64,000 bases of DNA, from NCBI RefSeq assembly GCF_014174395.1, contig NZ_JABEQD010000002.1, forward strand, positions 310,001 to 374,000, in the 5' to 3' direction. Below the pieces are notes generated by a model. The model was given only the letters and a program-made list of their open reading frames with translations, was not told the DNA's origin and ran no database searches. The stretch comes from Gluconacetobacter aggeris. Lineage in GTDB: Bacteria > Pseudomonadota > Alphaproteobacteria > Acetobacterales > Acetobacteraceae. Positions 1-23,806 of the stretch are shown in pieces (the stretch's first letter is position 1; the number at the start of each line of letters is the position of its first letter). Position numbers and translations under genes: made by a program.

Positions 1-1334
1 ACGTTGATGCTGTGCGGCCAGCCGGAGACATGAAACGCCCGGCTCAGATCGAAACTGTTGCTCCACTGCGAATTGTTGAACCCCTGCGCCGCGATGACCG
101 TCGGCGTGCGGCCAGTATCGCGGGCCACCGCGAAATTCGCCGAATCCTTCAGCCCGATCGCGTCATAATCCCGCCCGTAGACCGAGGACAGGTCCCAGTT
201 CCACCCCAGCAGGACACCCTTGACGCCGGCCGTGACCTCCCAGTCATCCTCGTCGATCGTCTCCAGCGGCGAATAGCCGTTCGGATAGATGGCGGCATAT
301 TCCGGATGCGTCGCAAGCGAACCGGGCAGGCGATAATTCTGGAACGCCTCGGCATGCCGGTGGGCATAGGTCGCCAGCGCATAAGCCTGGATATCGTCCG
401 TCAGGTCATATCCGGCCTTGACCGCCACGCTCTCGCGCGTCTGCTCGGGCTGGCCTTGAAGCTTGTTGATCTTGGTGCCCGTCCGCAGATCCGGCGCGCT
501 GCGGAACGTGTGGTCCTGATGCACGAAATCGCCGCTGACATGCACGAACCCGCGCGCGCCCAGCTTCGCGCCGCCGTCCAGATACACGCCCTGCTGGAAT
601 CCGTCCTTCGCGGCCGTGATGCCGGTAATCGATTCCGCGTTGAAACCGTGATCCTGCTTCTTGAGGATGATGTTCACCACCCCTGCCACGGCGTCCGATC
701 CATATTGCGCCGACGCCCCGTCACGCAGGATCTCCACATGGTCGATCGCCGCCATGGGAATCATGTCCACATCGACCGGCGTGGTGCCCTGCTGGGGGCC
801 GCCATCGGCATACAGGTTGGCCGTGGTATGGCGCCGCTTGCCATCCACCAGCACCAGCGTCTCGTTGGGGCTCAGGCCGCGCAGGCTGAAGGCCGATGTC
901 AGCGCGCCGGTATCGAAGCCCCCGGTCGGCAGCGTCAGCGACGGCAGCAACTGGCCCAGCGCCTGGCGCAGCGTCGGCTGGCCGGTCTGCGCCAGTTGCT
1001 TCGCCGAGACGATATCGATCGGCGCCACACTGTCCCGCGCCTTCTTCCCGATCTCGCGCGTACCGGTCACGATAATGGCCTCGCCGGCATCGGCCGGCCG
1101 CGCAGGCTGCGCCGTCCCCTTCACCGCCTGGACACGGGCACGGCTGGCCTTGCTCGCGTCCTGCGGCGCCGTGGCCTGCGCCGCCTCATCCGCCGCCATC
1201 ACCCGCGCAATCGGCAGCGCCGTCAGGACCGAGGCCGCCAGCAGGACATGCCGGGGACGCAGACGGCACCCCGCCACGAATATCCTTCTGCCGACAGGCA
1301 CGAAATCCGGGGCGAGCAAGCGGGAGGACGGCAC
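1..1334 (-). CDS. TonB-dependent outer-membrane receptor, 3' end cut by window edge
   Basis: This encodes the N-terminal part of an outer-membrane TonB-gated transporter; the rest of the barrel lies beyond position 1. Translation from the GTG at 1334 gives a basic N-terminus, a hydrophobic signal stretch (HVLLAASVLTALPIARVMA), a TonB-box-like EAIIVTGTRE and then a plug domain with LRGLSPNETLVLVDGKRR, IDHVEILRDGASAQYGSDA and GVVNIILKK. AAGGAG lies eight bases before the GTG and supports that start. Unlike the receptor starting at 9265 there is no STN signalling domain, so it should be a plain transporter. It sits downstream of the mannosidase operon behind a terminator and has its own AT-rich palindrome upstream. 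The substrate cannot be read from sequence; iron complexes or sugars/oligosaccharides are both possible. Confidence 0.9.
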   Translation of the reverse strand, partial: MPSSRLLAPDFVPVGRRIFVAGCRLRPRHVLLAASVLTALPIARVMAADEAAQATAPQDASKASRARVQAVKGTAQPARPADAGEAIIVTGTREIGKKARDSVAPIDIVSAKQLAQTGQPTLRQALGQLLPSLTLPTGGFDTGALTSAFSLRGLSPNETLVLVDGKRRHTTANLYADGGPQQGTTPVDVDMIPMAAIDHVEILRDGASAQYGSDAVAGVVNIILKKQDHGFNAESITGITAAKDGFQQGVYLDGGAKLGARGFVHVSGDFVHQDHTFRSAPDLRTGTKINKLQGQPEQTRESVAVKAGYDLTDDIQAYALATYAHRHAEAFQNYRLPGSLATHPEYAAIYPNGYSPLETIDEDDWEVTAGVKGVLLGWNWDLSSVYGRDYDAIGLKDSANFAVARDTGRTPTVIAAQGFNNSQWSNSFDLSRAFHVSGWPHSIN

Positions 1335-1367
1335 GATAGCGGCTCCTTTATTATACTGTAAAATGAC

Positions 1368-1385
1368 GTTGTTTTATAAAACAAC
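1368..1385. promoter_or_regulatory. 18-bp perfect palindrome upstream of the TonB receptor
   Basis: GTTGTTTTATAAAACAAC is its own reverse complement and lies 34 bp before the GTG start of the receptor. It is far more AT-rich than its surroundings. A TATAAT-like hexamer on the minus strand (1350-1355) follows between it and the ribosome binding site. The most likely role is a repressor or iron-regulator operator overlapping the promoter; the cognate regulator is not known, and the sequence is not a classical Fur box. Confidence 0.5.
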
Positions 1386-1492: not shown

Positions 1493-1526
1493 CAAAAACA
1501 AAACATACGCGCAGGCCGCACGGCCT
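1493..1526 (-). terminator. Probable rho-independent terminator after the mannosidase operon
   Basis: On the minus strand, arms AGGCC/GGCCT around GTGC (1513-1526) form a short GC hairpin directly against the TGA stop at 1526-1528. A T-rich run (TTTTGTTTTT) follows about nine bases later. The gap between stem and T-run is longer than ideal, so termination may be partial. Confidence 0.45.
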
Positions 1527-2023
1527 CATTTCTTCGCGACCGGCTCCACCCGATCGAAGACCAGCATCCCGATCACATGCCGCCCATCGTCCGAGGCGAC
1601 GGTCATGACCAGCCGCGCCCGGTCCGCGGACAGCGCCCAGCGCGTCACGACGACACGCGCCGTATCGCCGGTCCTGACCCCGTGCGTGACCACCAGCATC
1701 GGCCCCTCCCGCCGTGCCGCGACGGTGCGCAGCGTGCTGGTCCCCAGCACAGTCCGCTCCGGAAGCGTCACAACGCGGCCATCGGTCGGCAGTTCGAGCG
1801 TCAGATGCTGCACCCGCCCCCGCGCCATCGCGACGATGACATCCGTGATACGCTCCCCCCGGTCGATGATCGTATCCGTCCGCGCCTCCGGCTCCTGAAG
1901 ATCGCGATAATCGCTTTCCCCCTCATCCAGGCGCCATGTTCCCGAAAACCCGGCCGGCTCCCGCCCAAAGGCCGGCAGGCCGAGGCAAGCGGCGAACAGA
2001 ACAATCAGAACGCTCTTCATCAT
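1526..2023 (-). CDS. Small secreted protein, lipocalin-like (FSGTW type)
   Basis: A 165-residue protein starting MMKSVLIVLFAACLGLPAFG, a clear signal peptide, so it is exported. The mature part opens with FSGTWRLDEGESDY, close to the 'F.GTWKL...KSD' opening seen in small secreted beta-rich proteins of unknown role, and is otherwise rich in beta-strand-like alternation. The start at 2023 overlaps the TGA of the upstream mannosidase gene (ATGATG, stop at 2020-2022), implying translational coupling. A longer reading upstream is excluded because it would run through the mannosidase in another frame. Its presence as last gene of the operon suggests a helper or binding role for the hydrolases, but no function can be assigned. 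Confidence 0.8.
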   Translation of the reverse strand: MMKSVLIVLFAACLGLPAFGREPAGFSGTWRLDEGESDYRDLQEPEARTDTIIDRGERITDVIVAMARGRVQHLTLELPTDGRVVTLPERTVLGTSTLRTVAARREGPMLVVTHGVRTGDTARVVVTRWALSADRARLVMTVASDDGRHVIGMLVFDRVEPVAKK

Positions 2024-4218
2024 CGGGCACCCGGCGCCACCCAGGACGCCCCCCACCGGCTGGGCTTCGCTCCCATGACGAAATGCAGGGTGCGGCCATC
2101 CACCATGTCCCGATAGGCCACCATGGGCGATGCCAGCGGCACGCCATCCAGGGTCGCCGACCGGATATAGGGCGCCTCCGCCGCGCCACGGTCCGCCACG
2201 ACGCTGAACACCCGCCCATCCCCCATCCGCAGACGCGCGCGAGAGACCAGGGGCGACCCGATCATGTAGATGCCGGACGCCGGATTCACCGGATAGAACC
2301 CCAGGGCCGAAAACACATACCAGGCCGACATCTGCCCGCAATCATCGTCGCCATCCAGCCCGGACACACGGTCGGCATATTCGGTCCGCATGATCGCGCG
2401 CACCCGCTCCTGCGTCTTCCACGGCTGCCCGACGAAATCGTAGAGATAGGGCACATGATGCGACGGCTCGTTGCTGTGCCAGTTGTAATCGCCGTCGAAA
2501 TAGCGATCCAGCCGCGCGGCCAGGGCATCCCGCCCGCCCATCAGTCCGATCAGCCCGCCGACATCATGCAGCACGTCGAACGTGTAGACCCACTTCCCGC
2601 CCTCGGTCCATCCAACATCCGGCCCCGCCCACGACCCGTCGAGATTGCGCGCCTGCATGAACCGCGTGGCCGGATTGAAGATGGTCCGATAATCCAGCGA
2701 CCGGCGCAGGAAATGTTCATAATCCGCCTGCCTGCCGACCGCCCTGGCCACCTGCGCCACACACCAATCGTCATAGGCATCGTCCAGCGTGCTGGAGGCC
2801 GCCTCCGCCGTGCGGTCGGCCGGTACATAGCCCAGCCGCAGCGCATAACTCAGCCCGCCCCGCGCCTCATACGGCGTGCCCGGCTTGCGGTCGCGCCAGT
2901 CGTTCGTCCCGTCGCCATCGGGCGGCACCGTCGCATCCTTGCGCACCGCCTCCCAGGCCAGGGCCCGGTCGAAGCCCGCAAACCCCTTGCCGATCGCTTC
3001 CGCCACCAGCGAATCCGCATGGGTGCCGATCATGATGTTGGTATAGGACGGGTTGGGCCATTTCGGCATCCAGCCCCCCTGCCGGTAATCCTGCAACAGG
3101 GCCTGGACCATCCCGCCGATGCGCTCGGGCGCCACCAGCGTCAGCAGGCTGAATTCGGCCCGGAACACATCCCAGGTCGCAAAATCGGTATAGCTGTCGC
3201 CCTCATGCACACGGTCGTCGAATGCGCTGTAATAGCGCCCATATTCCGAAAGCGACCTGGGGTAGAGCAGCGCATGGTACAGCGCCGTATAGAAGATATG
3301 CCGCTGCTCCGCGCTCAACCCTTCGACCGCAATCCTGTCCAGCTTCTCCTGCCAGACATCATGCAGCGCCCTGCGGACGGTCTCGAAATCCCACCCCGGA
3401 ATCTCCCGCCGCAGATTGTCCCGCGCCTGCTCCACGCTGATGAAGGAGGTACCCACCCGCACCTCAACGTCATCCGCCCCCGCATCGAAGGTCGCAAACG
3501 CCCCCGTCGGCCGATCCGGCGCCGGCGTGGCCGGATAGGTGCTCATCGTCGCCGGGCGGCTGAACTGAACGACGAAATAGCCCCGAAAATTCGGCAGCTT
3601 CAGCGGGCCGAGATCGGCATCCGAACGGCGCGGATTATACCCCGCGATCTCGCCCTTCGCCTCGTCCACCCGCACACCGCCCGTCACGCCCGCGCGGCTC
3701 GCCTCCACCAGTACCCGCCGCGCCGTCCCGGCGGGAAAGCGGAAGCGGAACAGCGCCGAATGCGCCGCGGCCGTCATCTCGGCACGGATCGCCTGCCCGC
3801 CCGCCCCCATGACGACCCGATAATAATCGGGCCGTGCCACCTCGTCCCGATGGCTGAACGGCAATGCCCGCTCGGCAGGCAGGGTCCGGGCCTCGCCGCT
3901 CTCGGGCATGATCACCACGTCACCATAATCCCCCATCCACAACGCCGCCTGATGGGTGCCGGCAAAGCCGGAAATGGTCCGGTCCTTGTGATAGTAGGAC
4001 AGGCCAGGGTGGCCGCTCTGCCGCGTCTGCGCCACCCAGCCCGTCATGCCGAAGGGCGGCGTCACCACCGGCATGGTGCGCCCATAGCCAATCGGGCCGC
4101 CGCCGGTCCCGATCAGCGGATGCACCACATCGACCAGATCCTCCGCGCAGGCCGCACGCCCCACGACCGATCCGGAAACCAGCAGCAGAACAGCGGCAAG
4201 AACGGCATGGCGCCTCAC
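2020..4218 (-). CDS. GH92 family alpha-mannosidase, secreted
   Basis: A 732-residue glycoside hydrolase family 92 enzyme; the family comprises calcium-dependent exo-alpha-mannosidases acting on mannans and N-glycans. The start is a GTG at 4218 that overlaps the upstream stop (GTGA) and gives MRRHAVLAAVLLLVSGSVVG, a signal peptide; an in-frame ATG at 4263 would place codons inside the upstream gene and spoil the signal. Family motifs are present in order: HPLIGTGG and PPFGM near the N-terminus, ATWDVFRAEFSLL near residue 350, AYDDWCVAQ near 480, YLYDFVGQPWKTQ near 590 and DDDCGQMSAWYVFSALGFYP near 626. Length is typical. The stretch usually written TLEYAYDDW reads TLDDAYDDW, so a key acidic position may be Asp rather than Glu. 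Expected location is periplasm or exterior. Confidence 0.93.
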   Translation of the reverse strand: MRRHAVLAAVLLLVSGSVVGRAACAEDLVDVVHPLIGTGGGPIGYGRTMPVVTPPFGMTGWVAQTRQSGHPGLSYYHKDRTISGFAGTHQAALWMGDYGDVVIMPESGEARTLPAERALPFSHRDEVARPDYYRVVMGAGGQAIRAEMTAAAHSALFRFRFPAGTARRVLVEASRAGVTGGVRVDEAKGEIAGYNPRRSDADLGPLKLPNFRGYFVVQFSRPATMSTYPATPAPDRPTGAFATFDAGADDVEVRVGTSFISVEQARDNLRREIPGWDFETVRRALHDVWQEKLDRIAVEGLSAEQRHIFYTALYHALLYPRSLSEYGRYYSAFDDRVHEGDSYTDFATWDVFRAEFSLLTLVAPERIGGMVQALLQDYRQGGWMPKWPNPSYTNIMIGTHADSLVAEAIGKGFAGFDRALAWEAVRKDATVPPDGDGTNDWRDRKPGTPYEARGGLSYALRLGYVPADRTAEAASSTLDDAYDDWCVAQVARAVGRQADYEHFLRRSLDYRTIFNPATRFMQARNLDGSWAGPDVGWTEGGKWVYTFDVLHDVGGLIGLMGGRDALAARLDRYFDGDYNWHSNEPSHHVPYLYDFVGQPWKTQERVRAIMRTEYADRVSGLDGDDDCGQMSAWYVFSALGFYPVNPASGIYMIGSPLVSRARLRMGDGRVFSVVADRGAAEAPYIRSATLDGVPLASPMVAYRDMVDGRTLHFVMGAKPSRWGASWVAPGAR

Positions 4219-6494
4219 GGTGACGACACCCCCAGCAGACGGGTAAAGGTCGCAAGCGGACACACAGCCCCGCCCCCACAGCCCGGCACGGCCAGATAGG
4301 CCATATCCGGCGGATCGCGCTCATCCCCCGCCCGCTGCCGGCCGGGCGTCTGCGACTGGAACATCACTTGCACAACCGGATGCCCGCCCCGCGCATCCGT
4401 CAGCAGGGCAAAGCCCAGCGCACTGCCCACCGGCACATCATCCATCGCATAGCCCGGCGCATGCACATGCAGCCCAAGCTGCGCCAGCAGCGGCACGATC
4501 GTGCTGTCATGCCCCAGCCATACCGCCACAGCCGGGCCGTCGGCACGGGTCAGGCCCGCCACGATCGCCGGGCGCAGCTTCTGGCTGAGCACCGGCGCCA
4601 GCGCCGGCAATCCCGTCATCACATGCAGCATCGCCGCATGCAGTCCGGACAGGCCGGCAAAATCCTCATCGCGCACGGCCCCCCACGCGGCCGAAGCAGC
4701 AGACCGGCCGGACAAGGAGCCCAGCATGATCGCCTCCGCCGCCGACGACGCCGGCAGCAACGATCCCGAAAGGGTCAGATGCCGACCCGACGCATCGACA
4801 TCCAGCACCGCCGGCGCCCCGTCATCGACGCAAAGCGCCCCCCGCCCAGGACAGCCCATCAGCCGCCGCAGCACCGCAAGCCCCTCGCGCGGCGGCCCCG
4901 CCAGCAACCCGGCGGCGGCGGCTTCTGCCCGCAGGCGCGGCAGCAGCGCCCGCACATCCACCTGGCCGGCAGCCGCTTCAACCGGCGCGAACATCCCATC
5001 CGGCACACCGATCGGCTCATGACGCACCGCAACCGGGCAACCCGGCGCCAGGCCCATGGCAAACGCCTCGGCACTGGCCACCGTCCGCCGGCTGGAATTC
5101 GCCCGCAGCCGCAGCGCATCGGGCGCCGGGCAGCCGCCGGCCGCAAATCCCGGCACGTCATTGCCCGCCAGCAGCACCCGCTCCCACGCCCCCAGCAGGC
5201 GCATCTGCGCCGCCCCCTCCGGCGTCAGGTCGCCCGGAATCCCCGTCCACACCGGCCATGCGTGATCGACCAGCGCGCGCGACGGCACCTGATCGGCCAG
5301 CGGCGAGCGCAGGCCATGCCGCACCACCAGCACCAGCCGGCGCAGGCGCAGCGCGTCGGCCGCACGCGGCGCGATCGCCGCATCCCGGCAGGATGCCGGC
5401 GCGGTCACCGGGTTGCAGCGCGCCGCCAGCCCGGTCCCGAACCCCACGCGATAGCCCGTCCAGCGCGCCGGCTCGAAATCCGGGTAATCGGTGCTGACAA
5501 GCTGGGCACCGCTGGCCAGCGCCGCATCGCGCCGCGCCGGGTCGCCGCTGCGCCCTTCCCGCGTATCCGCATCGGCGCGCGTCCGCACCAGCATGTGCCG
5601 GCGCACCAGTGCCGCAATCGCCTCCGGCGGCCCGTCATTCAGCTCGGTGAAGGCCGCATCCTCGGCATCGGGCGGCGCATTGGTAAACGCAACCCGCCCG
5701 CGCAGCCCCGGATGATCCTTCAGATACAGGTCACGATTCGACCGCTGATCCAGCAGAAAAATCACCTTCCCCCGCGCGGCATCCACACCCGGCCAGCCAC
5801 GCGCCGCAACGGCGTTCCGCAGGCTCGCCGCCTCACCCCGCACCCGGTCGGGCGTCAGCAATTCCCCCGGCGCGAAGACGGAACGGATCTCCCCGTCCAG
5901 CGCATCGAAGCTCCGGGCGGTAAAATGCTCGGGCTCGGTCAGCGGCGGCCGCGATCCCTGTTCGATCTCCAGCAGCACGAACAGCGGCAGATGCCCCGGA
6001 TGCGCCCGCGACCACGCCCGTATCTGCCCCAGACAGGCCAGCAGCGGCTGGCAGGTCGCCCGCTGATCGATATCGGGGATATGCATCACCTTGAAGCCGG
6101 GGCGCCGCATGACGGCCCCATCGCCCGTCTCGGCGGGCGGCAACCCCGCCTCCGCCAGCCAGCGCGCCGATTGCGGATGCGCGAACCGCCCGCCCACACT
6201 GTCCGCATAGACATCCAGCTCGATCTGCCGGATTCCCCGGTCGAACTGCGCCGGCAGGTCCGCATGCGCATAGTCCAGCCCCTGCGCCGCTTTCGGGTCC
6301 CGCCGCGCCAGCAGCGCCGCGATCTGGGGCGCCAGCCCGGCATGATAGCTGTTATGCGACCCGATCACCTGGATCTGGTCCAGCCGCACTCCCTCCGCCG
6401 CCCCGGATGCCGGCGCCACCACCGGCATCAGCAGCAGCGCCAGCAAACACCCCCCCGCCACGCACCCGGCGCGACGGGGGAACCGGACGGCCAT
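4215..6494 (-). CDS. Fusion: Ca2+-dependent PI-phospholipase C-like domain + histidine acid phosphatase (phytase-like)
   Basis: A 759-residue secreted two-domain enzyme. After a signal peptide (residues 1-33) comes a PI-PLC-C1-like domain: IGSHNSYH at 44-51, RGIRQIELDVYAD, then VMHIPDID and a closing VSTDYPDFEP near 330. This is the pattern of calcium-dependent phosphoinositide phospholipase C-like proteins. From about residue 380 a histidine acid phosphatase begins: RHGLRSP near 392, the Arg/Thr helix SSRRTVASAEAFAMGLAPGC, and the proton-donor motif GHDSTI near 661, as in AppA-type phytases and glucose-1-phosphatases. Predicted joint action is release of a phospho-inositol head group followed by its dephosphorylation. 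Start ATG at 6494 overlaps the receptor stop (TGATG); its own stop overlaps the mannosidase GTG. Each domain is clear; the substrate is inferred. Confidence 0.9.
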   Translation of the reverse strand: MAVRFPRRAGCVAGGCLLALLLMPVVAPASGAAEGVRLDQIQVIGSHNSYHAGLAPQIAALLARRDPKAAQGLDYAHADLPAQFDRGIRQIELDVYADSVGGRFAHPQSARWLAEAGLPPAETGDGAVMRRPGFKVMHIPDIDQRATCQPLLACLGQIRAWSRAHPGHLPLFVLLEIEQGSRPPLTEPEHFTARSFDALDGEIRSVFAPGELLTPDRVRGEAASLRNAVAARGWPGVDAARGKVIFLLDQRSNRDLYLKDHPGLRGRVAFTNAPPDAEDAAFTELNDGPPEAIAALVRRHMLVRTRADADTREGRSGDPARRDAALASGAQLVSTDYPDFEPARWTGYRVGFGTGLAARCNPVTAPASCRDAAIAPRAADALRLRRLVLVVRHGLRSPLADQVPSRALVDHAWPVWTGIPGDLTPEGAAQMRLLGAWERVLLAGNDVPGFAAGGCPAPDALRLRANSSRRTVASAEAFAMGLAPGCPVAVRHEPIGVPDGMFAPVEAAAGQVDVRALLPRLRAEAAAAGLLAGPPREGLAVLRRLMGCPGRGALCVDDGAPAVLDVDASGRHLTLSGSLLPASSAAEAIMLGSLSGRSAASAAWGAVRDEDFAGLSGLHAAMLHVMTGLPALAPVLSQKLRPAIVAGLTRADGPAVAVWLGHDSTIVPLLAQLGLHVHAPGYAMDDVPVGSALGFALLTDARGGHPVVQVMFQSQTPGRQRAGDERDPPDMAYLAVPGCGGGAVCPLATFTRLLGVSSP

Positions 6495-9265
6495 CAGAAC
6501 TGGCCCATCAGCGACAGGCGGAAATTCCGCCCCAGGATCGGCCGCGCCAGGAATACATTCTGCCCCGCCTGCGAACTCAGCACCTCGCCCGCACGCGGAT
6601 TGCCCTCCGTCAGGCCAAGCGAGTCGTTGAGGTTCTGACCGGAGAGATTGAAGGTCAGATAAGGCGTGATCGCATAGGTCGCACCGAAGTTGATCACCGT
6701 ATAGGCCGGCAGGCGCTGGGTATTGGCCACATCGGCATAGCGCAGCCCGTAATGCTCGATATCGGCCTGCAACAGCAGCCTGCCGTCCAGCAGATGCAGG
6801 CGCGGCGTCACGCGAAACATCACCGGCGGCGTCCGCAGCAGATGGTTGCCGGTATAATCCAGCAGATTGGGCGACCCGTTGCTCAGCACCAGATAGCGCA
6901 TCTTGCCGAACCGCGCATTCTGCGCGGTGCCGGAGAACACCACGTCGACATACTTGCCGGGGCGGATCGTCCCCTCGAATTCCAGCCCGTACGTATGGGT
7001 GGTCGCCGTGATCGCCTGCTGGTTGTACGACCCCGTCTTCACGTCGAAGACCAGATTGTTGATCCCGTAGCTCGGATAGTCGGTATTGAACCCGGTCAGG
7101 AAAAGATCCGCATAGCGCGACTGATATTTCACGCCGCCTTCATACATGAAGATCTTCTGCGTGATCGGCACCGCCACCGGATTGGTGATGAAAGACGCCA
7201 GGCTGGGCAGGCGATAGGCACGCGTGAAGCGGGCAAAGAACCCGAGATTGGGCTGAAGCTGGTAATTCACGCCGATCGTGCCGCCGAACCCGGCGAAACT
7301 GGCATGATAGGGCGTATAGACCCCGTTACCCGACAGCATGTTTGACAGGTAAGGCGCCGCACCCGCCACCACACTGTGGCTACCTTCCACCAGGCCGCTG
7401 GTCCGCTGCGCCTCATAGCGCACGCCGGCATCCACCCGCAGCTTCTTCGTGATGGCCCATTCATCCGTCGCATAGCCCGCAACGTCGGTATCGTCGCCAT
7501 GCCCGTTGGCAAATTCGGTGCCGTAACGGGTATAGCCGTTCTGGGTGATCGACCCCACGACATTGCCCGCCGCATCCACGGCATCGATATTCAGGCGCTG
7601 GGCATGCGACGTGGTGTCCAGCAGCATGTTGGCCGAATAGCGCGTGAAATCCTCGTTGAAATACGTAACGAACGCCCCCATCGCCACATCATGATGGCCG
7701 AGGAACGAGAAGGATTTCTCCAGCTTGAAGTCGTTCATGACCTCATGCTCGTTCATCCACACCGCGCGCAGCGAGGCATCCGTCACATAATTGTTGCCCG
7801 TCACCGCCGAGGTGAATTGCTGGCTCGGATCATTCAGGTAACGCAATTGCCAGCCGGTAGCGCCGGCGAACATCGACCCGGCACTGGCCAGCCCGGCCAG
7901 ACGCGCGCCGGCCTGCGTCACCGCGCTGGGCGACAGCACGGTCCAGGTCGCATTCATCGCGCGATAACGGAACGTGTCGGACAGATGCCACCCGTCCGCC
8001 AGATCATGCCTGAAACCGGCCGTCACCTGATGGAGGTTGATATGGATGCCGCTCTGCAGGTCGATATGCTTCGTGCTGCCGCCAGGACCTGGCAGATACG
8101 CATTCTCCAGCGCCGAAGACGAATAACTGCCGGTATTGGCATCGAACCCGGGAAGCGACGTGATGTTGCCCGACTTGTCATACGTCACCGGAATGTCGGG
8201 AAAGAACGTGGTCCGGTCGTCCATGTGCTTGTAATCGACGAAGACGCTGCCGCCATGGCTGAAATCGCGACTGATATTGGCGCGGATCTGCCCGCCCGAA
8301 TTGGCGCGGAAACCGGGGTCGCGCACGCCGTTCTCCACCCGGTAGAACCCGCCCAGGCTCCAGCGCCAGGCACCGGCCGGTCCACCCAGCCAGGCATCGG
8401 TGCGGTACAGCCCGTCATCGCCGAACGTCTGCTTGGCCAGCCCCGACAGCTTGCTGGTCCCCCGCCGCGACAGGAAATTGACCAGCCCGCCCGGCGCATT
8501 CTGCGCGACGATCGAGCTCGGCCCGCCACGCACCACCTGGATCTGCTTCATCGTCTCGTCGATACGAAACGAATCATCGGCGTTCAGATACCCCAGAGCC
8601 GGGTCCGACTGGATCGGCAACCCGTCTTCCTCAAGCTGGACCGATCCATACCCATCCACCGGAATACCGCGCGCCCGGATATTGGCACCCACTTCACCGC
8701 CCGAGGCCTCGACCCAGAAACCGGGCGTATTCTTCAGCGCCTCGGACACCGAAGACGTCCCCCGCACACGCAGATCTTCCTGCGAAATGGTGGTGATCGC
8801 GTAGCTGGCATCGATCTTCCGCTGCTTCCTGGTCGACGCACGGCCGGTCACGATCACGGCCTCGCCTTCCCGCAGCGATGCCGGCGTGGCCGAGGCCCGC
8901 GCGGCGCGTTGCAGCAGCCACACCCCATCCGCCTTCGACCGTACCGAAATCCCGGTGCCCCTGAGCATGTCGTCGAGCGCCTGCTCCGGCGTCTTTCTGC
9001 CTTGTACGGTGCCGGAGCGGACATTTTCCACATCATGCCCATCCACCGCCACATGCACGCCCGACTGGCGGCTGAACTGCGTCAGGGCAGAAGCAAGCGA
9101 CTGCGCCGGGATGGAAAAATCCCTCTCGGCGGATGATTGCGCAACGGCCGCGGAAGGCAGCACCAGCGGCAGCGTGGCCATGGAGGCCATGGCCAGGCCA
9201 AAGACATGGAAGGGAGGGAAAGCGGCACCGAACACAGGTCGAGGGCGCGGGTTCTTTCTTTTCAC
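6494..9265 (-). CDS. TonB-dependent transducer with N-terminal STN signalling domain (FecA-like)
   Basis: A 923-residue outer-membrane receptor. Residues 1-42 form a long signal peptide ending AAVAQ. Residues about 48-120 form the STN (secretin/TonB N-terminal) domain (FSIPAQSLASALTQFSRQSG, then TPEQALDDMLRGTGI) that contacts a periplasmic anti-sigma factor. A TonB box-like EAVIVTGRA, a plug (NIRARGIPVDGYGSVQLEEDG, IQVVRGGPSSIVAQNAPGG) and a 22-strand-type barrel follow, ending in aromatic LSLMGQF as expected for BAM insertion. GTG at 9265 is the start; the nearby ATG at 9285 is out of frame. With the sigma and FecR genes just upstream it forms a FecIRA-like cell-surface signalling unit. The hydrolase genes that follow by overlap suggest it imports or senses their product. 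Confidence 0.95.
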   Translation of the reverse strand: MKRKNPRPRPVFGAAFPPFHVFGLAMASMATLPLVLPSAAVAQSSAERDFSIPAQSLASALTQFSRQSGVHVAVDGHDVENVRSGTVQGRKTPEQALDDMLRGTGISVRSKADGVWLLQRAARASATPASLREGEAVIVTGRASTRKQRKIDASYAITTISQEDLRVRGTSSVSEALKNTPGFWVEASGGEVGANIRARGIPVDGYGSVQLEEDGLPIQSDPALGYLNADDSFRIDETMKQIQVVRGGPSSIVAQNAPGGLVNFLSRRGTSKLSGLAKQTFGDDGLYRTDAWLGGPAGAWRWSLGGFYRVENGVRDPGFRANSGGQIRANISRDFSHGGSVFVDYKHMDDRTTFFPDIPVTYDKSGNITSLPGFDANTGSYSSSALENAYLPGPGGSTKHIDLQSGIHINLHQVTAGFRHDLADGWHLSDTFRYRAMNATWTVLSPSAVTQAGARLAGLASAGSMFAGATGWQLRYLNDPSQQFTSAVTGNNYVTDASLRAVWMNEHEVMNDFKLEKSFSFLGHHDVAMGAFVTYFNEDFTRYSANMLLDTTSHAQRLNIDAVDAAGNVVGSITQNGYTRYGTEFANGHGDDTDVAGYATDEWAITKKLRVDAGVRYEAQRTSGLVEGSHSVVAGAAPYLSNMLSGNGVYTPYHASFAGFGGTIGVNYQLQPNLGFFARFTRAYRLPSLASFITNPVAVPITQKIFMYEGGVKYQSRYADLFLTGFNTDYPSYGINNLVFDVKTGSYNQQAITATTHTYGLEFEGTIRPGKYVDVVFSGTAQNARFGKMRYLVLSNGSPNLLDYTGNHLLRTPPVMFRVTPRLHLLDGRLLLQADIEHYGLRYADVANTQRLPAYTVINFGATYAITPYLTFNLSGQNLNDSLGLTEGNPRAGEVLSSQAGQNVFLARPILGRNFRLSLMGQF

Positions 9266-9326
9266 AGGATCTATCCGGGCTTTTCATGGTGGATGGAGGA
9301 CACCAGTGAGTTGCCCCACGCCCCGA

Positions 9327-9332
9327 ATTTCC
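9327..9332 (-). promoter_or_regulatory. Candidate ECF (FecI-type) -35 element GGAAAT before the receptor
   Basis: On the minus strand GGAAAT, the -35 hexamer recognised by FecI-like sigma factors, occurs 62 bp before the receptor start in the gap between fecR and the receptor, where the regulated promoter is normally found. A convincing -10 element at the usual 16-18 bp spacing was not found, so this is a weak call. Confidence 0.25.
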
Positions 9333-9476
9333 GTCTCCCGTTTTCGTGAAAGTTAAATGACAACCGGAATGGATCGGAACCTGCCCGTGCCCGCAGGGCC
9401 GCACCCGCCATGTGTTTCCGAGCCCCGGAGCGGAGCAACCCAACGCGCCCGTCCAGGCCGGATCTCAGACAGGATC

Positions 9477-10442
9477 TCAGAAAATATCCAGCCGCCGTGC
9501 CGACGCCACATAATCGACATGCAGCACGCCCCGCGCCACCCGCGCGAACGTGTCGGGATCATCGAGCGCGAACGAGCCCATCAGCACGCGCCCGCCCGCC
9601 TGGCCATGCACCATCAGCTTCTTCGCGTTATACCGGTTGAAGATCGCGGCGGCGTCGCCAAGCGTTTCGCCCTGCAATTCCACCACGCCGCGTTCCCAGT
9701 TGGTGGCCCGTGCCAGCTCGTCCGCCGTCAGGCCACGCAGCCGGGGGGGCGATCCCGCCCCCATGGTCAGGCAATCCCCGGCCCGCAGCGTGAACCGCTC
9801 CCCGGTCCCCTGCCGGATCGCCACGGCACTGCCCGAAAGCAGCAGCCCGGTCGTCCGGTCCCCCGCAATCGCGACCTGCACCCGCCCGACCGAACGAAAT
9901 GTCAGGCTCCCGGCATCCAGTCGCGCCACCCGCCGGCTCGACAGCACACAGCGCCCATCCAGCAGCCGCGCAGCCGCCCCCCCCACCAGCAGGCCGGAAA
10001 AGCAGTCGAGCCGCACCGTCCCGCCCGCCATCTCGATCGAGCGCGGCGCCGCGTCCCGCACGCTGTAGAATCGCCCCATTTCCCGCGACGGCGCCGGCCA
10101 TGCGCCAAGCGCCAGACCCGCCGCCGAGGCCACCATCGCCCGGCGCGACAGGCTCCGCGCCCGCGCGGGCAAGGGGTGCAGGGCGGCAAATGCTTCCGGG
10201 GGGCGAACGGCCAGGGACGCACCGGCCCCGGCACCCGGCCTCAGCGCCGCCGCGCGTTCCGTCGCCTGCCACACCACCTGCGCCCGGATCATCGCGCCAC
10301 GATGGCGGAGATCGGCGCCCAGCCAGCGGTCCAGCTCCCCCTGTTCCCCGGCGGTCAGCGCGGCACGGTCCATCCGCGCCACCCAGTCCGCGGCGATGCT
10401 CTCAGGCGTTGGATTTTCCCGTCCGCAGGTCACCGGGCCCAT
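9477..10442 (-). CDS. FecR-family anti-sigma factor
   Basis: A protein of about 321 residues starting at ATG 10442 (MGPVTCGRENPTPE); a GTG nine bases further on is an alternative. The N-terminal cytoplasmic part carries the FecR signature SIAADWVARMDRAALTAGEQ. One membrane segment (AMVASAAGLALGAWP) lies near residue 135. The periplasmic part carries the FecR domain (GGTVRLDCFSGLLVG through VQVAIAGDRTTGLLLSGSAV) and the C-terminal NWERGVVELQGETLGDAAAI motif that binds the receptor STN domain. It should hold the sigma factor inactive until the ligand-loaded receptor signals. It overlaps the sigma gene by 41 bases, implying coupled synthesis. Confidence 0.93.
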   Translation of the reverse strand: MGPVTCGRENPTPESIAADWVARMDRAALTAGEQGELDRWLGADLRHRGAMIRAQVVWQATERAAALRPGAGAGASLAVRPPEAFAALHPLPARARSLSRRAMVASAAGLALGAWPAPSREMGRFYSVRDAAPRSIEMAGGTVRLDCFSGLLVGGAAARLLDGRCVLSSRRVARLDAGSLTFRSVGRVQVAIAGDRTTGLLLSGSAVAIRQGTGERFTLRAGDCLTMGAGSPPRLRGLTADELARATNWERGVVELQGETLGDAAAIFNRYNAKKLMVHGQAGGRVLMGSFALDDPDTFARVARGVLHVDYVASARRLDIF

Positions 10443-11010
10443 GCCCGCCGCCCTGCGCCGGAAGATCCCGGCCGGCATAGGCCATGCCGATGATCCTGAG
10501 CGCCCTGGCAAGCTGCTTTTCGACCACATTCTCCGAAACATTCAGGTGAAGCGCACATTCGCGTTGTGAATATCCATAAAAGCGGCGCAACACGAACACG
10601 TCCCGGCACCGGTCCGGCAGGTCACGCGCGACCTGGTCGAGAAAACGCAGTTCCTGCCGCGCGGTCACCGACCGTTCGACCGCCTGCCCCTGGTCGGGAA
10701 TCTCCGCGCCCGAAAAATCGGTCAGGGAATCGAACGAGACGATCCGTGCCTTGCGATAGTGTTGAAGAACCAGATTGCGCGCCACAGCAAAAAACCATGC
10801 ACGCGGAAATCTGATGGACGCATGGTCGGCTTCGGCAAGCTCCACCCAGGCCTGCTGGATGATATCGTCGCTCTCGATCCCCGAAAAACGCCGCAGCCAG
10901 CTCCGCACATCCCCCTCATGCGGAAGAATATGGGTCGCCAGCCAATGATTTCGCTCTTCCGGAAGCAATGGACCACATCCAGTCGCACAAGGACGGCGCG
11001 TCGATAGCAT
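10402..11010 (-). CDS. ECF sigma factor, FecI-like
   Basis: An extracytoplasmic-function RNA polymerase sigma factor of about 202 residues. Region 2 is seen as DIIQQAWVELAEADHASIRFP...AWFFAVARNLVLQHYRK, and region 4 as LPDRCRDVFVLRRFYGYSQRECALHLNVSENVVEKQLARAL, the FecI arrangement. The start is uncertain: ATG 11010 (MLSTRRPCAT) gives a normal length, while in-frame ATGs further upstream add about a dozen or more residues of unusual composition. It is first gene of the FecIR-receptor unit and should direct transcription of the receptor-hydrolase operon. It is divergent from the MFS exporter, with about 100 bases between their starts. Confidence 0.92.
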   Translation of the reverse strand: MLSTRRPCATGCGPLLPEERNHWLATHILPHEGDVRSWLRRFSGIESDDIIQQAWVELAEADHASIRFPRAWFFAVARNLVLQHYRKARIVSFDSLTDFSGAEIPDQGQAVERSVTARQELRFLDQVARDLPDRCRDVFVLRRFYGYSQRECALHLNVSENVVEKQLARALRIIGMAYAGRDLPAQGGGHGPGDLRTGKSNA

Positions 11011-11110
11011 GCGGTCCCGGCGAGAAATGTGATAAACTCGTGACATCCATAGCCGCCCCGCCGCGCGCCGCGGCATGGAAGTCGCCCCTGTGGCGCGTTA
11101 TGATCGGACC

Positions 11111-12493
11111 ATGCCGATCCTGCCCTATATCGTCGCCGCCACCTTCTTCATGGAGTATCTCGACTCCACCATCATCGCCACGGCCCTGCCGGCGATGGCG
11201 CGCAGCTTCCATGTCGGCCCCAACGAACTCAGCCTGGGCATGACGGCCTATATGCTCACCCTGGCGGTCTTCATCCCCGTCAGCGGCTGGATGGCCGACC
11301 GTTTCGGCTCGCGCACCATCTTCGCTACCGCCGTGTCCATCTTCACCGCCGCCTCGATCCTGTGCGGCTTCGCCGGCAGCGTGAACATGTTCATCGCCGC
11401 CCGGGTGCTCCAGGGGCTGGGTGGCGCGATGATGGTGCCGGTCGGGCGTTTCATCGTCATGCGCAATACCGAGACCAGCCGCATGATCCAGGCGGTCTCG
11501 ACCATCACCTGGCCGGCGGTGGCGGCCCCGGTGGTCGGTCCCACGATCGGTGGCATGATCGTGACCTTCACAAGCTGGCGCTGGATCTTTTTCATCAACC
11601 TGCCGCTGGGCCTGGCGGTGCTGGGCGTCATCTTCGCCGTGGTGCCGCAACAGTTCGGCGAACGCCGCCCGCTGGACTGGGGCGGCTTCGTGCTGGGCGG
11701 CCTGGCGCTGACATCCATCCTGCTGGGCACGGAGCTGGCCAGCAACACCCGGGCCAGCCTCACCCTGGCCGCCCTGCTGTTCGGCGGCGGCCTGCTGCTG
11801 GCCATCGCCACCCTGCGCCACGCGGCGGCCAGCACCCACCCGCTGCTCGATTTCGGGCTGTTGCGCCACCCCACCTTCAGCGTCACCATGGCGGCCGGCA
11901 CGCTCTCGCGCCTGACGATCGACGCCATCCCCTATCTGGTGCCGCTGCTGTTCCAGATCGGCTTCGGCCTCACCGCCTTCCATGCCGGGTCGCTGATGCT
12001 GGCCTTCGCGCTGGGCAATCTGGGTATGAAGATGTTCACCACCCGCATCCTCCAGCGCTTCGGCTTCCGCGCCACGGCCGCCGTCAACGCGGCATTGGGG
12101 GCGCTGTTCGTGCTGCTGGCGAGCACCATGGTGCCCGCCACCCCGGTCACCATGCTGCTGCTGGTGCTGCTGGGCTGCGGCATCACGCGCTCGATGCAGT
12201 ACACGCTGCTGGCCACGCTGGGCTTCGCCGATATCGGCGCCCAGGAAAAGGGTGCGGCCAGCACGCTCCTCAGCGTCAACCAGCAGATGTGCATCGGCAT
12301 GGGCGTCGCCTTCGCCGCCCTCACCCTGCGCCTGATCGCCACCCTGCGCGGCGAACACCCAGCGACCGACGCCTTCACCCAGACCGACTTCCACTGGGCC
12401 TTCCTGGTCGCCGCAATCCCCCTGATCCTGTCGATCCCCGGCTACCTGCGCCTCGACCGCACCGCCGGCGCCGCCCTCCGCCAGGCATCCTGA
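11111..12493 (+). CDS. MFS drug/solute exporter, DHA2 (EmrB/QacA-like)
   Basis: A 460-residue inner-membrane proton-driven exporter. The start at ATG 11111 opens directly into the first membrane segment (PILPYIVAATFFMEYLDSTI), whose DST...ATALP motif is typical of DHA2 members. Motif A is GWMADRFGSRTIF and motif C-like glycines follow in TWPAVAAPVVGPTIGGMIV. Thirteen to fourteen hydrophobic segments are visible. No adjacent membrane-fusion protein or regulator is present, so the substrate is unknown. It lies back to back with the sigma factor and converges on hslU. Confidence 0.9.
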   Translation: MPILPYIVAATFFMEYLDSTIIATALPAMARSFHVGPNELSLGMTAYMLTLAVFIPVSGWMADRFGSRTIFATAVSIFTAASILCGFAGSVNMFIAARVLQGLGGAMMVPVGRFIVMRNTETSRMIQAVSTITWPAVAAPVVGPTIGGMIVTFTSWRWIFFINLPLGLAVLGVIFAVVPQQFGERRPLDWGGFVLGGLALTSILLGTELASNTRASLTLAALLFGGGLLLAIATLRHAAASTHPLLDFGLLRHPTFSVTMAAGTLSRLTIDAIPYLVPLLFQIGFGLTAFHAGSLMLAFALGNLGMKMFTTRILQRFGFRATAAVNAALGALFVLLASTMVPATPVTMLLLVLLGCGITRSMQYTLLATLGFADIGAQEKGAASTLLSVNQQMCIGMGVAFAALTLRLIATLRGEHPATDAFTQTDFHWAFLVAAIPLILSIPGYLRLDRTAGAALRQAS

Positions 12494-14558: not shown

Positions 14559-16481
14559 TCATCCGCCCATCGCACGGGCGACATGCCCCGACAATTCGGC
14601 CTGGGTGAAGGGCTTGCGCAGCACCAGCGCATCCTCCGGCAACACGGCATTGTCGGCATAGCCGGTCAGGAACAGGATACGCGTTTCGGGATAGAGCGCG
14701 CCGATCCGCCGCGCCGCCTCCTCGCCGCCCATTTTCGGCATCATGACATCCAGCACCACCAGGTCGGGCCGATGGGGCGCCATCGCATCGATTTGCGCCA
14801 GCGCCTCCTCCCCGCCCGATGCCTCGATCGCCTCATGCCCCATGCCGCGCAGGAAACCGGCCGTCACGGTCCTGACCGTGTCCTCGTCGTCCACCACCAG
14901 GATGCGCAGCCCCTTGCGGACAGGCAGAGGCTCCAGCGCCTCCGGCCGGTCGAGGGCCGCCACCGGGCAGCGATGGACCGGCAGATACAGATCCACCTGC
15001 GTCCCCTGCCCCGGCGCGCTGGTCACCCGCACATCGCCCCCGGCATGGCGCACGAAACCATAGATCATCGACAGGCCCAGCCCGGTCCCCCGCCCGACAT
15101 CCTTGGTCGTGAAGAACGGCTCGAAGATCCGCGCCAGCGTCTCCGGCGCCATGCCCGTGCCCTGGTCGGCCACCGACACCACGACATATTCGCCCTGGGG
15201 CAGATCCCCTTCAGCCACCGGCGCCTCCAGCCGCGCCACATGGGTCGAGAGCATGATCCCCCCCCCATCCGGCATGGCGTCGCTGGCATTCAGGCACAGA
15301 TTCAGCAGCGCCAGTTCCAGTTGCCCGGCATCGGTCCGCACCAGCGGCACCTCCCCGCCCGGGTCCGCGGTCTCCATCCCGATCTCGACCGGCGGGCGCC
15401 CCGCCGCCCCCTCGCGCCGCCGCGCGGTCACGCCCTGCACCAGCAGGTCATGCATGCCCCGCAACAGAGCATTCACATCGACCGGTTGCAGGCTCAGATC
15501 ACGCGGCCGGCTGAAATTCAGCAGCCGGCGCGTCAGGTCGGCCCCCCGCCGTGCCGCGCCCATCGCATTGTCCAGCAGATGGGTCGTGCGGTCGTCCAGC
15601 CCCGCGCCCATATCGACGGCCAGTTCCAGAGACCCCATCACCGCCGTCAGCAGATTATTGAAATCATGCGCAATTCCGCCGGCCATGGTGCCCAGCGCCT
15701 GCATCTTTTCCGCCTGGCGCAGGCGCGCCTCCATCTCGCGCTGGCGAGTGACGTCCCGATTGATCAGCACCGAATAGGCCTCGCCCCGCGCATTCACGCC
15801 CAGACGCGCACGGGTGAATTCCCGCCAGCTCACACTGCCGCCGGGGCCGGACACCGGCAGCACTTCCTCATCCCGGCCCTCGGCCTCCAGCCGCGCCTCA
15901 GCCGCATGCAGCGCCGGCAGCAGGGCCGGATCGGACAGATCCTCCTCCCGCCGCCCCAGACAATCGGCCTCGTCCCGGCCATAGAAGGCGGCGGCATTGC
16001 GGTTGATGCGGATAAAGCGCCCGTCCGGGTCCTTGAAGGCCAGGCCGGCGCGCAGATTCCCCAGCAGGCCGCGCAGCAGCATCCGCTCGGTCTGCAACTC
16101 GCCTTCCAGCTTGTGGCGATGCGCCGCCTGGACGACCATCGCGCGCAGGGCATCCCCATCCCAGGGCTTGTGCGAATAGAAGGAAATCCGCCCCTGGTTC
16201 AGCGCCGCCGCCACGGCGCCGATATCGGCATACCCTGTCAGCAGGATCGCCTGCGCGTCGCACATCCCCCGCGCCCGCGCCAGCATCACGTCGCCCCCCA
16301 TCTCGGGCATGCGCTGGTCCGAGACGATGACATCGATATCGCGGCGCCGGGCCAGAATATCCAGCGCCTCGACCGGCGAGGTGGTCGACAGGATGGTGAA
16401 ACTGTCTTCCAGCAGGTCGGTCAGCGCCACCAGGATCTCTGGTTCGTCATCCACCAGCAGCACGACGGGGCGGTCGGTCAC
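14559..16481 (-). CDS. Hybrid histidine kinase: REC-PAS-HisKA-HATPase-REC
   Basis: A 640-residue cytoplasmic hybrid kinase without membrane segments. Domains in order: receiver with phospho-acceptor in VIVSDQRMPEMGG near residue 54; PAS (GLAFKDPDGRFIRINRNAAAFY) about 140-250; HisKA with GGIAHDFNNLLTAV near residue 272; HATPase with CLNASDAMPDGG and EPFFTTKDVGRGTGLGLSMI; C-terminal receiver with LVVLDVMMPKMGG near 576. The HDFNN phosphoacceptor type and terminal receiver resemble CckA-like and other soluble hybrids. Its ATG overlaps the stop of the preceding kinase gene (ATGA), so it is the last member of the Wsp-like operon and a plausible phosphorelay output of the CheA in that operon. Confidence 0.95.
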   Translation of the reverse strand: MTDRPVVLLVDDEPEILVALTDLLEDSFTILSTTSPVEALDILARRRDIDVIVSDQRMPEMGGDVMLARARGMCDAQAILLTGYADIGAVAAALNQGRISFYSHKPWDGDALRAMVVQAAHRHKLEGELQTERMLLRGLLGNLRAGLAFKDPDGRFIRINRNAAAFYGRDEADCLGRREEDLSDPALLPALHAAEARLEAEGRDEEVLPVSGPGGSVSWREFTRARLGVNARGEAYSVLINRDVTRQREMEARLRQAEKMQALGTMAGGIAHDFNNLLTAVMGSLELAVDMGAGLDDRTTHLLDNAMGAARRGADLTRRLLNFSRPRDLSLQPVDVNALLRGMHDLLVQGVTARRREGAAGRPPVEIGMETADPGGEVPLVRTDAGQLELALLNLCLNASDAMPDGGGIMLSTHVARLEAPVAEGDLPQGEYVVVSVADQGTGMAPETLARIFEPFFTTKDVGRGTGLGLSMIYGFVRHAGGDVRVTSAPGQGTQVDLYLPVHRCPVAALDRPEALEPLPVRKGLRILVVDDEDTVRTVTAGFLRGMGHEAIEASGGEEALAQIDAMAPHRPDLVVLDVMMPKMGGEEAARRIGALYPETRILFLTGYADNAVLPEDALVLRKPFTQAELSGHVARAMGG

Positions 16482-18370
16482 GCCTGCATCTCCGCATTAC
16501 TCCGGACGGGCTCGGCCATCGCTTCCAGATGCGGCTGCCAGGGCACCGAAATCGTAAACATCGTTCCCCGTCCTCCATTGGTGCCGGCCCTGCGCGGCGC
16601 GTCGGCAATCGCGATCGTGCCATGATGGGCCTGCACGACACTATAGGCGATGGCCAGCCCCAGCCCCGTCCCCGCCCCCACCGGCTTGGTGGTAAAGAAC
16701 GGCTCGAAGATCCGCTCCGCCATCTCCGGCGGAATGCCCGGACCATTATCCGTCACGATAAAGACATATGATTGCTCGCCCGAGCCCTCGCTGACACGCA
16801 ATTCGGTGGCAATCCTGATCACTCCGCGCGCCGGCCCCGCCGGGTCGCCCTCGCCGGCATCCTCCAGCATGGAATAAATCGCGTCGGCGGCATTGCTGAT
16901 GATGTTCATCATCACCTGGTTCAGCAACGCAGACTGGCAATACAGGCGCTCGGGCGCGCGATAATCCCGCTCCACCACGATCTGGTTGCCGAATTTCTGC
17001 GTCAGCAGGGCCAGCACCGTCTCCAGTGCCTCGGGCACGTCGATCACCTGGAACAGCCCCTCGTCCAGGCGCGAGAATTTCCGCAGGTTCAGGACCAGGT
17101 TCTGGATGCGCCGCAGGCCCAGGCTCATCGATTCGACACGGTCGCGGCATTTCATCAGCGCCGCGTGCCGGCTCCCGTCCGCATCCGTGCCAGGGTCCTC
17201 CTCGGCGATCACCTGCGCCAGCAGGCGGGCCACCGTCTCCTTGTGGGCCAGGATGAAGGCCAGCGGATTGTTGATCTCATGCGCAATGCCGGCCACCAGC
17301 TCGCCCAGCGACGCCATCTTGGCGGTCTGCACCAGCTTGCCCTGGGTCTCGATCAGCCGGCGGTTGGCATCGGCCAGCTCGGCATTCGCCTGTTCCAGCG
17401 CCTCGGCCAGCGAGGCCTTGGAGGCAATCGCCGCCGCCTCGGCCCGCGCGGCCTCGACCGCGATCTCGCGCGCCTGCCGGTCCAGGTCGATGCGCCGCGC
17501 ATCGTCCTGCAGCAGCTTGCGCCGCACCAGCGCCCGAATCCGCAGGGCCAGCACATCGGGCTCGATATCGTCGGCCACCATGTCGTCCACACCGGCCTCG
17601 AACGCCCGTGCGGGAAAGACACCGCGCGCCGCACCCGGCCCGCTCAGGCCCAGGATACGGGGCGCCCCTCCGCCCGCCACCACGACATCCTGCCGCAGAT
17701 CGTCCAGTGCCTGGCAGAAGGCGATGCCGTCGAACCGGTCGGACACCAGATCGACCACCACGCAGTCGGGCGCACGCGCAGGGTCGAACCAGTCCGCCCG
17801 CTCCATCGCGCCGGGATGACCGATCACGGTCACGTCATGCCCGTCATTGCGCATCAGGGCCGCCAGGGCCGCCACCGCATGCTCCCGCGCCCCTTCGCCG
17901 CCGACAATCAGGATTCGTGCCCGACGGAACAGCGGGCTGGCATCCCGCTGCCCGGTACCGGCCCCCGTACCCGCACCCTCGCGCAGCAGCGCGCGGATGC
18001 GAAAGACGATCAGGTCCGGTTCGGCCGATTTGGGCACATAGGCATCGGCGCCGCTTTCCAGCCCCTCGCGCTCCAGGCCCGGCTCCCCCCCCTCGGTCAG
18101 CATCAGCACCGGGATCATGCGGGTGGCCGCACTCATGCGTAATTGGCGCGCCATCTGCCCGCCATTCATGCCCGGCAGATGGTAATCGGCGACCACCAGA
18201 TCCGGAATCCGCGTATCCAGCGTATCCAGCGCGGCCTCGCCACTGGCCACCCGCGTCACCGCAAAGCCATGGCCTTCCAGCATCCGGCGTATGCGCAACG
18301 CCTGGGTGTCGGAATCCTCGACCAGCAGCAGCGTCGGCGGCACCTGCCCCTCGGCGGAGGCGTCGGTCAT
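16478..18370 (-). CDS. Sensor histidine kinase with receiver and pseudo-receiver: REC-REC'-HisKA-HATPase
   Basis: A 630-residue soluble kinase. The first receiver (LLLVEDSD, acceptor in [13 protein letters not shown] near residue 59, Lys in YVPKSAEPD) looks intact. A second receiver-like domain ([14 protein letters not shown] to about residue 280) lacks the acidic pair and has [13 protein letters not shown], so its phospho-transfer is doubtful. A coiled linker rich in A/E leads to HisKA with [15 protein letters not shown] near 363, then HATPase motifs [10 protein letters not shown] and [19 protein letters not shown]. It overlaps cheB upstream and the hybrid kinase downstream by four bases each. 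Receiver-headed kinases of this type accept phosphate from a partner kinase, here most likely the operon's CheA. Confidence 0.94.
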
Positions 18371-21548: not shown

Positions 21549-21557
21549 GGCCGGCCG

Positions 21558-23240: not shown

Positions 23241-23246
23241 GACAGG

Positions 23247-23792
23247 TCAGACTCCGAATTGACGCGCGGCGAACAGGCGGGCGGGGTCCAGCACCGCGAC
23301 CAGCCTCCCATCCGGCAGGGCTGCCATCGGGTGGGCCGATACCGGTGCGGCGGCCGGCGCCCCCACCACATCGTCCACACCCAGCGTCCGCCCGGCCAGC
23401 AGCGCGATCCGCGCCACCGGCAGGCCGGCCACCGGGCGCAGCAGCGCCATGGCCCCGGCACGATCCATCGGCGCCCCGCCCAGCAGAACCGACAGATCGA
23501 TCACCGTATACAGATGGCCGACATAGCCATAGACACCCCGCACCGACACCGGGCAGTCCGGCCGCCGGGGCATGACGCTCCAGGCCGGCTCGGCCATGCG
23601 CAGCACATGGTGCAGGTCGATGGCATAGATCTGCCCGCCAACGTCCAGGATCACCGCCGCGCGGCGCCCCGCATCGTCGGCCGGCGCCTGCCCGCGCGCG
23701 GCCAGTTGCCGCGCACGCTCCGCCATCACCCGGCGGGCATAGCCGCCCGCGCTCCCGACGGACGCGTCGCGCGGCCCCGCCACGTCCGGCAT
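23247..23792 (-). CDS. CheW-like coupling protein (WspB/WspD type)
   Basis: A 181-residue protein with one CheW domain (AVILDVGGQIYAIDLHHVLRM, VRGVYGYVGHLYTVIDLSVLLG, RIALLAGRTLGVDDVV) that links the receptor to CheA. The first 45 residues are a low-complexity extension (QLAARGQAPADDAGRR). It ends six bases before the receptor gene. The operon's second CheW-type protein starts at 25730, matching the paired CheW proteins of Wsp systems. Confidence 0.9.
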   Translation of the reverse strand: MPDVAGPRDASVGSAGGYARRVMAERARQLAARGQAPADDAGRRAAVILDVGGQIYAIDLHHVLRMAEPAWSVMPRRPDCPVSVRGVYGYVGHLYTVIDLSVLLGGAPMDRAGAMALLRPVAGLPVARIALLAGRTLGVDDVVGAPAAAPVSAHPMAALPDGRLVAVLDPARLFAARQFGV

Positions 23793-23806
23793 GCCGCCCT
23801 GACCGG

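Follow-up and report, generated by a model that had tools for sequence, protein, structure and literature searches.

A putative receptor-signalled gene cluster for scavenging alpha-mannosylated phosphoinositide glycoconjugates in Gluconacetobacter aggeris

A cluster of six genes in Gluconacetobacter aggeris, here called locus A, is real and conserved, and is probably a system for receptor-signalled scavenging. Judging from its domains and gene neighbourhoods, we are inclined to read it as a system resembling polysaccharide-utilisation loci (PULs), placed under cell-surface signalling and directed at alpha-mannosylated phosphoinositide glycoconjugates.

The window (the whole stretch of DNA analysed) comprises 64,000 nucleotides. 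Six genes had been named in the sequence-only reading on its minus strand (1526-11010), and all are where they had been placed; in Pfam and NCBIfam domain scans the small secreted protein alone had no match (Table 1). The three gene overlaps that it described are also present: TGATG at 6494 holds the receptor stop and the fusion start, GTGA at 4218 the fusion stop and the GH92 start, and ATGATGA at 2023 the GH92 stop and the start of the small protein. Of the proposal that the genes form one colinear unit, the colinear order stands and the single unit probably does not. Because a 211-bp gap with a conserved promoter-like block (9266-9476; about 120-390 bp in relatives) separates the FecR-like gene from the receptor gene, transcription probably proceeds in two units. 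One would hold the sigma and FecR-like genes, the other the receptor, fusion, GH92 and small-protein genes, and the block suggests that the second is driven by the cluster's own sigma factor. In G. asukensis and G. tumulicola the gap length varies via repeat-like GC-rich insertions (GCTTCGGTGCTC / CGCTCCGATGCTCG).

Table 1. Features of locus A and its divergent neighbour, in window coordinates
Feature	Position	Strand	Basis or remark
FecI-like ECF sigma factor	10402..11010	-	ORF open to 11076; ATG 11010 is the inferred start
FecR-like anti-sigma factor	9477..10442	-	Start inferred; overlaps sigma gene
Candidate sigma-dependent promoter block GGAAATTCGGGGCGTGGGGCAAC	9310..9332	-	Six-species alignment footprint
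TonB-dependent receptor/transducer with STN signalling domain	6494..9265	-	Pfam STN, Plug, TonB_dep_Rec
Secreted PI-PLC-C1/histidine acid phosphatase fusion, 759 aa	4215..6494	-	Pfam, motifs, AlphaFold
PLC half of fusion	about 5409-6389	-	
Phosphatase half of fusion	about 4233-5381	-	
GH92 exo-alpha-mannosidase, signal peptide	2020..4218	-	Pfam, TIGR01180
Small secreted beta-barrel protein, about 165 aa	1526..2023	-	Kept in six species; low-confidence model
Divergent DHA2-type MFS transporter	11075..12493 (start 11075 or 11111)	+	MFS_1; neighbour in 6/6 carriers

The divergent MFS transporter is a conserved neighbour and, on gene order, a candidate member of the system only. A second TonB receptor (TBDT2), which lacks an STN domain, lies downstream (window 1-1373, minus strand, continuing to L006:9292-11778) and occurs in the neighbourhoods of four of the six carriers; it was rejected as a system member because the sequence read around the cluster in G. 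asukensis and G. tumulicola does not contain it. Elsewhere in the window, the translations read as a chemotaxis/response-regulator gene cluster at 14559-25730 (minus strand), and a GC-rich (72-75%) set encoding large proteins, with strong AT skew, occupies 47401-53345 (minus strand). One of these proteins matches the Complex I 49 kDa subunit (E 1.5e-15), and three others that were scanned had no Pfam match at 0.001.

All six genes occur in order in 6/14 Gluconacetobacter genomes, the other carriers being G. asukensis, G. tumulicola, G. dulcium, G. liquefaciens and G. sacchari. Co-occurrence in related genomes, set beforehand as a test, was thus found within the genus. The five other species share the order MFS (divergent)-sigma-FecR-receptor-fusion-GH92-small protein, with 69-98% protein identity, and the gene set therefore cannot be due to chance. 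The receptor accompanies the locus-A fusion in all six genomes that have it and was found in no other of the 14, and the cluster therefore appears to have been gained or lost as a block. Because locus A is known from one genus only, we count the gene linkage as one evolutionary event. A receptor linked to hydrolases and a regulator, with overlapping genes and an order kept in six species, is the arrangement of a polysaccharide-utilisation-type locus. About 3-5 kb downstream of the cluster, G. dulcium (L033:16855-19499) and G. liquefaciens (L034:3-2083) have a further sigma/FecR/receptor set (39%/31%/27% identity), which is absent from the stretch read in the window's genome.

The fusion enzyme joins a PI-PLC-C1 domain (Pfam E 2e-120), present in full (PF16670, profile 1-329 of 329), to a His_Phos_2 domain (E 5e-15) whose Pfam match spans the N-terminal third only; the NCBIfam match and the fold span the whole phosphatase. 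H47 and H138, which we take to be the PLC catalytic pair, are invariant together with acidic residues among the 21 relatives compared. The phosphatase half carries RHGLRSPL and GHDSTI, the motifs of branch-2 histidine acid phosphatases, and its nearest relatives are phytases and glucose-1-phosphatase. RHGhRS and GHDxTI are kept in nearly all 14 fusions, Swaminathania having RHGLRT, and the shorter RHG and GHD cores are kept in every one. In the AlphaFold model (pLDDT 84.6), the C-terminal half matches phytase/glucose-1-phosphatase and the N-terminal half matches the Ca-dependent PI-PLC 5fyr. Bacterial Ca2+-dependent PI-PLC (5fyo, 3h4w) and periplasmic phytase/AGP (4aru, 3ntl) each match one half of the fusion in sequence and predicted fold, but here both are joined in one protein. 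Within the public genome collection searched, the PLC-phosphatase join was seen only in Acetobacteraceae; the named species nearest to this genome are G. asukensis and G. tumulicola, with about 96% identity in the fusion protein. Nothing relevant was found in the literature on a PI-PLC/HAP fusion or on mannan use by acetic acid bacteria.

The mannosidase belongs to GH92 (GH92N E 4e-51 and GH92 E 1e-161 in Pfam, with a TIGR01180 match), and its TEG and GDDDCGQ motifs (catalytic acid/base) align with BT3130. Trp88 and His584/Glu585 have described roles in BT3990, whose 580-loop sets the alpha-1,2 preference (PMC5930347). The equivalent of Trp88 is kept in the cluster enzyme, within THQAALW, and the whole 580-loop carrying His584/Glu585 is deleted, which places the enzyme outside the alpha-1,2-mannosidase subgroup and leaves its linkage specificity open. 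One GH92 cuts alpha-1,4-mannosides, found mostly in GPI cores and fungal walls (PMC5930347). No match to the cluster receptor, sigma, anti-sigma or fusion was found near the other GH92 genes of the genome (L004, L005). The small protein has a low-confidence all-beta model with FABP/CRABP-like (fatty-acid/retinoid-binding-protein) matches, and lipid binding is only a suggestion.

Fusions also occur in Gluconobacter, Acidomonas, Novacetimonas, Brytella, Swaminathania and Acetobacter senegalensis (public genome scan). In a maximum-likelihood tree they form one clade (100/99) made up of two sister clades, which match two locus types. In eight of the nine loci outside the locus-A setting, the fusion lies next to a GH76-SBP-TIM(IolE-like)-ROK-ABC set and an IolG-like enzyme of the Gfo/Idh/MocA type. 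Locus B, with its GH76, binding-protein importer and ROK kinase, was found as eight loci in Gluconobacter, Acidomonas, Brytella, Novacetimonas, Acetobacter and G. sacchari, where it houses a second fusion copy. Its receptor is unrelated to that of locus A and lacks an STN domain; the single receptor tested falls in the TIGR01782 class. In Swaminathania and in genome G242, a receptor and the fusion are present with GH76 absent nearby. Swaminathania has, besides the fusion gene, two tandem stand-alone PI-PLC-C1 genes by a divergent Plug-domain protein (L039:9084-11740). Of 249 Acetobacteraceae genomes, 15 have PI-PLC-C1, seven the fusion and only four a strong GH76, which in three of the four lies within 7 kb of a fusion. 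One further locus (L087, G239:C56) has the GH76-SBP-TIM-ROK-ABC set, a receptor and the Gfo/Idh/MocA enzyme without a PLC/phosphatase gene, and the phosphoinositide step is therefore optional in locus B.

We consider the convergent association of the fusion with two unrelated families of alpha-mannan hydrolases (GH92 and GH76), in two unrelated contexts, to be the strongest new evidence. Common ancestry within each setting reduces the fourteen cases to two events. In five of the eight Acidobacteriota loci read, a receptor-like barrel and a metallophosphatase come first and a stand-alone PI-PLC relative after them (two Pfam-scanned, the other three assigned by matching sequence), and GH92 is directly adjacent in one locus (L082) and about 6 kb off in another. 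A lipase and a phosphatase, the latter of a different family, are thus paired again. The claim that the target holds both alpha-mannose and phosphoinositol gains support from the recurrence of the fusion/PLC pairing in locus B (GH76) and in Acidobacteriota (GH92 once). The GPI core glycan is reported to be cut by Dfg5-type GH76 and to be recognisable by a fungal/bacterial-type GH76 (PMC12295086).

Scavenging of such conjugates would yield mannose, phosphate and perhaps lipid. GPI anchors and mannosyl-inositol-phosphoceramides contain alpha-mannose and phosphoinositol, as do phosphatidylinositol mannosides (PIM)/lipomannan and plant glycosyl-inositol-phosphoceramides (GIPC). We favour yeast GPI-mannoproteins or mannosyl-inositol-phosphoceramide as the most likely candidate source. 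Acetic acid bacteria commonly live with yeasts, and it is because of this ecology that yeast is the likeliest donor; no result here singles it out. With the same machinery, actinobacterial PIM/lipomannan or plant GIPC could be the donor, which is possible, although we doubt it. Their composition would suit GH92 and GH76, given that PIM/lipomannan is PI with alpha-1,2 and alpha-1,6 mannose and that plant GIPC bears mannose on inositol-phosphoceramide. Several carriers come from plant or fermentation settings, which we count for these donors, but the habitat that acetic acid bacteria generally share with yeasts counts against them. A GH92 without the 580-loop that gives BT3990 its alpha-1,2 preference (PMC5930347), and hence of open linkage, would accommodate them too, but the known GH76 loci of marine and gut bacteria target fungal alpha-mannan (PMC9213526).

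The locus could also serve mainly to free phosphate from phosphoinositides, phytate or glucose-1-phosphate, with mannose removal merely exposing the headgroup. The kinship of the phosphatase half to phytases and glucose-1-phosphatase fits this idea, as do the different phosphatase paired with PI-PLC in Acidobacteriota and the fact that no iolE-type gene for inositol catabolism turned up in this genome. We nevertheless consider it unlikely, given the repeated pairing with alpha-mannan hydrolases, the sugar uptake and catabolic genes of locus B, and cell-surface signalling, which senses a specific ligand and not general phosphate. Inositol carbon is doubtful in this strain because iolE was not found. 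Among carriers, only G007 has iolE above the cut-off, and the IolE/IolG-like enzymes of locus B score below theirs, for which reasons inositol catabolism was given less weight as the purpose of the system.

The sigma factor has Sigma70_r2 (E 1.6e-7) and r4_2 (E 3e-12) domains in Pfam and exceeds the TIGR02937 (sigma70-ECF) cut-off in NCBIfam; we class it with the FecI-type ECF sigma factors of cell-surface signalling, the FecI-type models themselves matching below their own cut-offs. The anti-sigma factor has DUF4880 above the gathering score (E 1e-6), a weak C-terminal FecR match (NCBIfam, E 3.7e-4) and a membrane segment that is also weak. The receptor has an STN domain above the gathering score (E 1.2e-8), as in receptors of cell-surface signalling, and its nearest solved structures, for the N-terminal part only, are FpvA, FoxA, HasR and FecA. 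The STN/anti-sigma mechanism is established for FecA/FoxA-type receptors (PMC11637429) and likewise for the STN-bearing SusC transporters of Bacteroides (PMC7782687).

In the six-species alignment, the last part of the FecR-receptor gap holds a conserved block, GGAAA(T)...GGGGCG.G.GGCAAC, and the FecR-proximal part varies freely. GGAAAT, which is probably the -35 element of FecI-type promoters, begins 67 nt before the receptor start (GGAAAA in G. sacchari). Each of the six carriers has a single exact match to the block pattern, always at this place, and the eight non-carrier Gluconacetobacter genomes have none. This suggests a candidate sigma-dependent promoter, for which ligand-dependent activation is predicted. 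The unit has no iron genes and the best Fur-like box in the upstream regions scored 11/19, in agreement with the sequence-only reading that cell-surface signalling is here tied to hydrolases and not to iron. An ordinary iron/siderophore FecIRA system with separately expressed neighbouring hydrolases is very improbable: iron uptake is the usual role of FecIRA systems (PMC1790865) and FpvA, FecA and FoxA are similar to the receptor in its N-terminal part, but the genes of the hydrolases overlap one another as well as that of the receptor, the six-gene order is fixed in all carriers, no upstream match to a Fur box is better than that just given, and the receptor's siderophore-family scores (NCBIfam) are far under curated cut-offs.

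In the scenario that we propose for alpha-mannosylated phosphoinositides, the STN receptor would bind a soluble mannosyl-phosphoinositol glycan, and its STN domain would signal to the FecR-like anti-sigma factor so that the FecI-like sigma factor is freed. The freed sigma would fire the GGAAA promoter ahead of the receptor-PLC/phosphatase-GH92-small protein genes. The glycan would be imported via the receptor and its mannose stripped by GH92, while the PLC half would release phosphoinositol from the lipid. The phosphatase half would take phosphate off the resulting inositol phosphate. We infer the inducer, the substrate, the enzymes' sites of action and the step order. The cluster's enzymes have ordinary signal-peptide-like N-termini and a lipid-anchored protein would be unable to pass a TonB receptor, which we count against this scenario with respect to the site of PLC action. 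Further points against it are the weak C-terminal FecR match, the single evolutionary origin of the locus-A linkage, the locus-B variant that lacks PLC, and the fusions of Swaminathania and G242 that have no GH76 close by.

The Bacteroides PULs with ECF-sigma/anti-sigma pairs have the same sigma, anti-sigma and STN TonB transporter (SusC) before glycan-degrading enzymes (PMC7782687), whereas the present locus is alphaproteobacterial and includes a PI-PLC/phosphatase for a lipid headgroup. No SusD-like domain was found by Pfam in any cluster protein and the SusC-type model is weak, so the locus lacks the SusC/SusD pair of a Bacteroidota PUL. The yeast alpha-mannan loci of Bacteroides and Salegentibacter share GH92 (with locus A), GH76 (with locus B) and TonB-driven uptake, as described in PMC5930347 and PMC9213526, but far fewer mannosidases are found here, and GPI, phosphatase and phospho- terms are all absent from the Salegentibacter paper. 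FecI-FecR-FecA and FoxI-FoxR-FoxA are likewise regulators built of three parts, in which the receptor bears STN (PMC11637429), but here the receptor operon carries hydrolases and no Fur-like box was found. In the Xanthomonas CUT loci, a TonB receptor is likewise grouped with degradative enzymes for complex carbohydrates, although the FecI/FecR case in that study is Fur-linked (PMC1790865). Sigma-controlled glycan loci are thus already known in Bacteroides, and the apparent novelty lies in the fusion, in a lipid headgroup as target and in the genus.

More speculatively, and with rather less confidence than in the function itself, acetic acid bacteria may have evolved dedicated systems, under receptor signalling, to take apart the GPI anchors or mannosyl-inositol-phosphoceramides of yeast for food. 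These would be built on a new PI-PLC/phosphatase fusion, with GH92 and GH76 versions arising separately, and would be the first utilisation loci aimed at a eukaryotic lipid anchor and not at a polysaccharide. Since there are two sister locus types, the identity of the substrate can be tested directly. If the proposal is correct, the two-step enzyme (lipase plus phosphatase) could possibly be used in releasing GPI proteins, and receptor signalling through sigma and anti-sigma factors, known for iron and gut glycans, would in food and plant bacteria also serve phosphoinositide glycolipids. It would also help to explain in molecular terms how yeasts in vinegar, kombucha and fruit are exploited by acetic acid bacteria.
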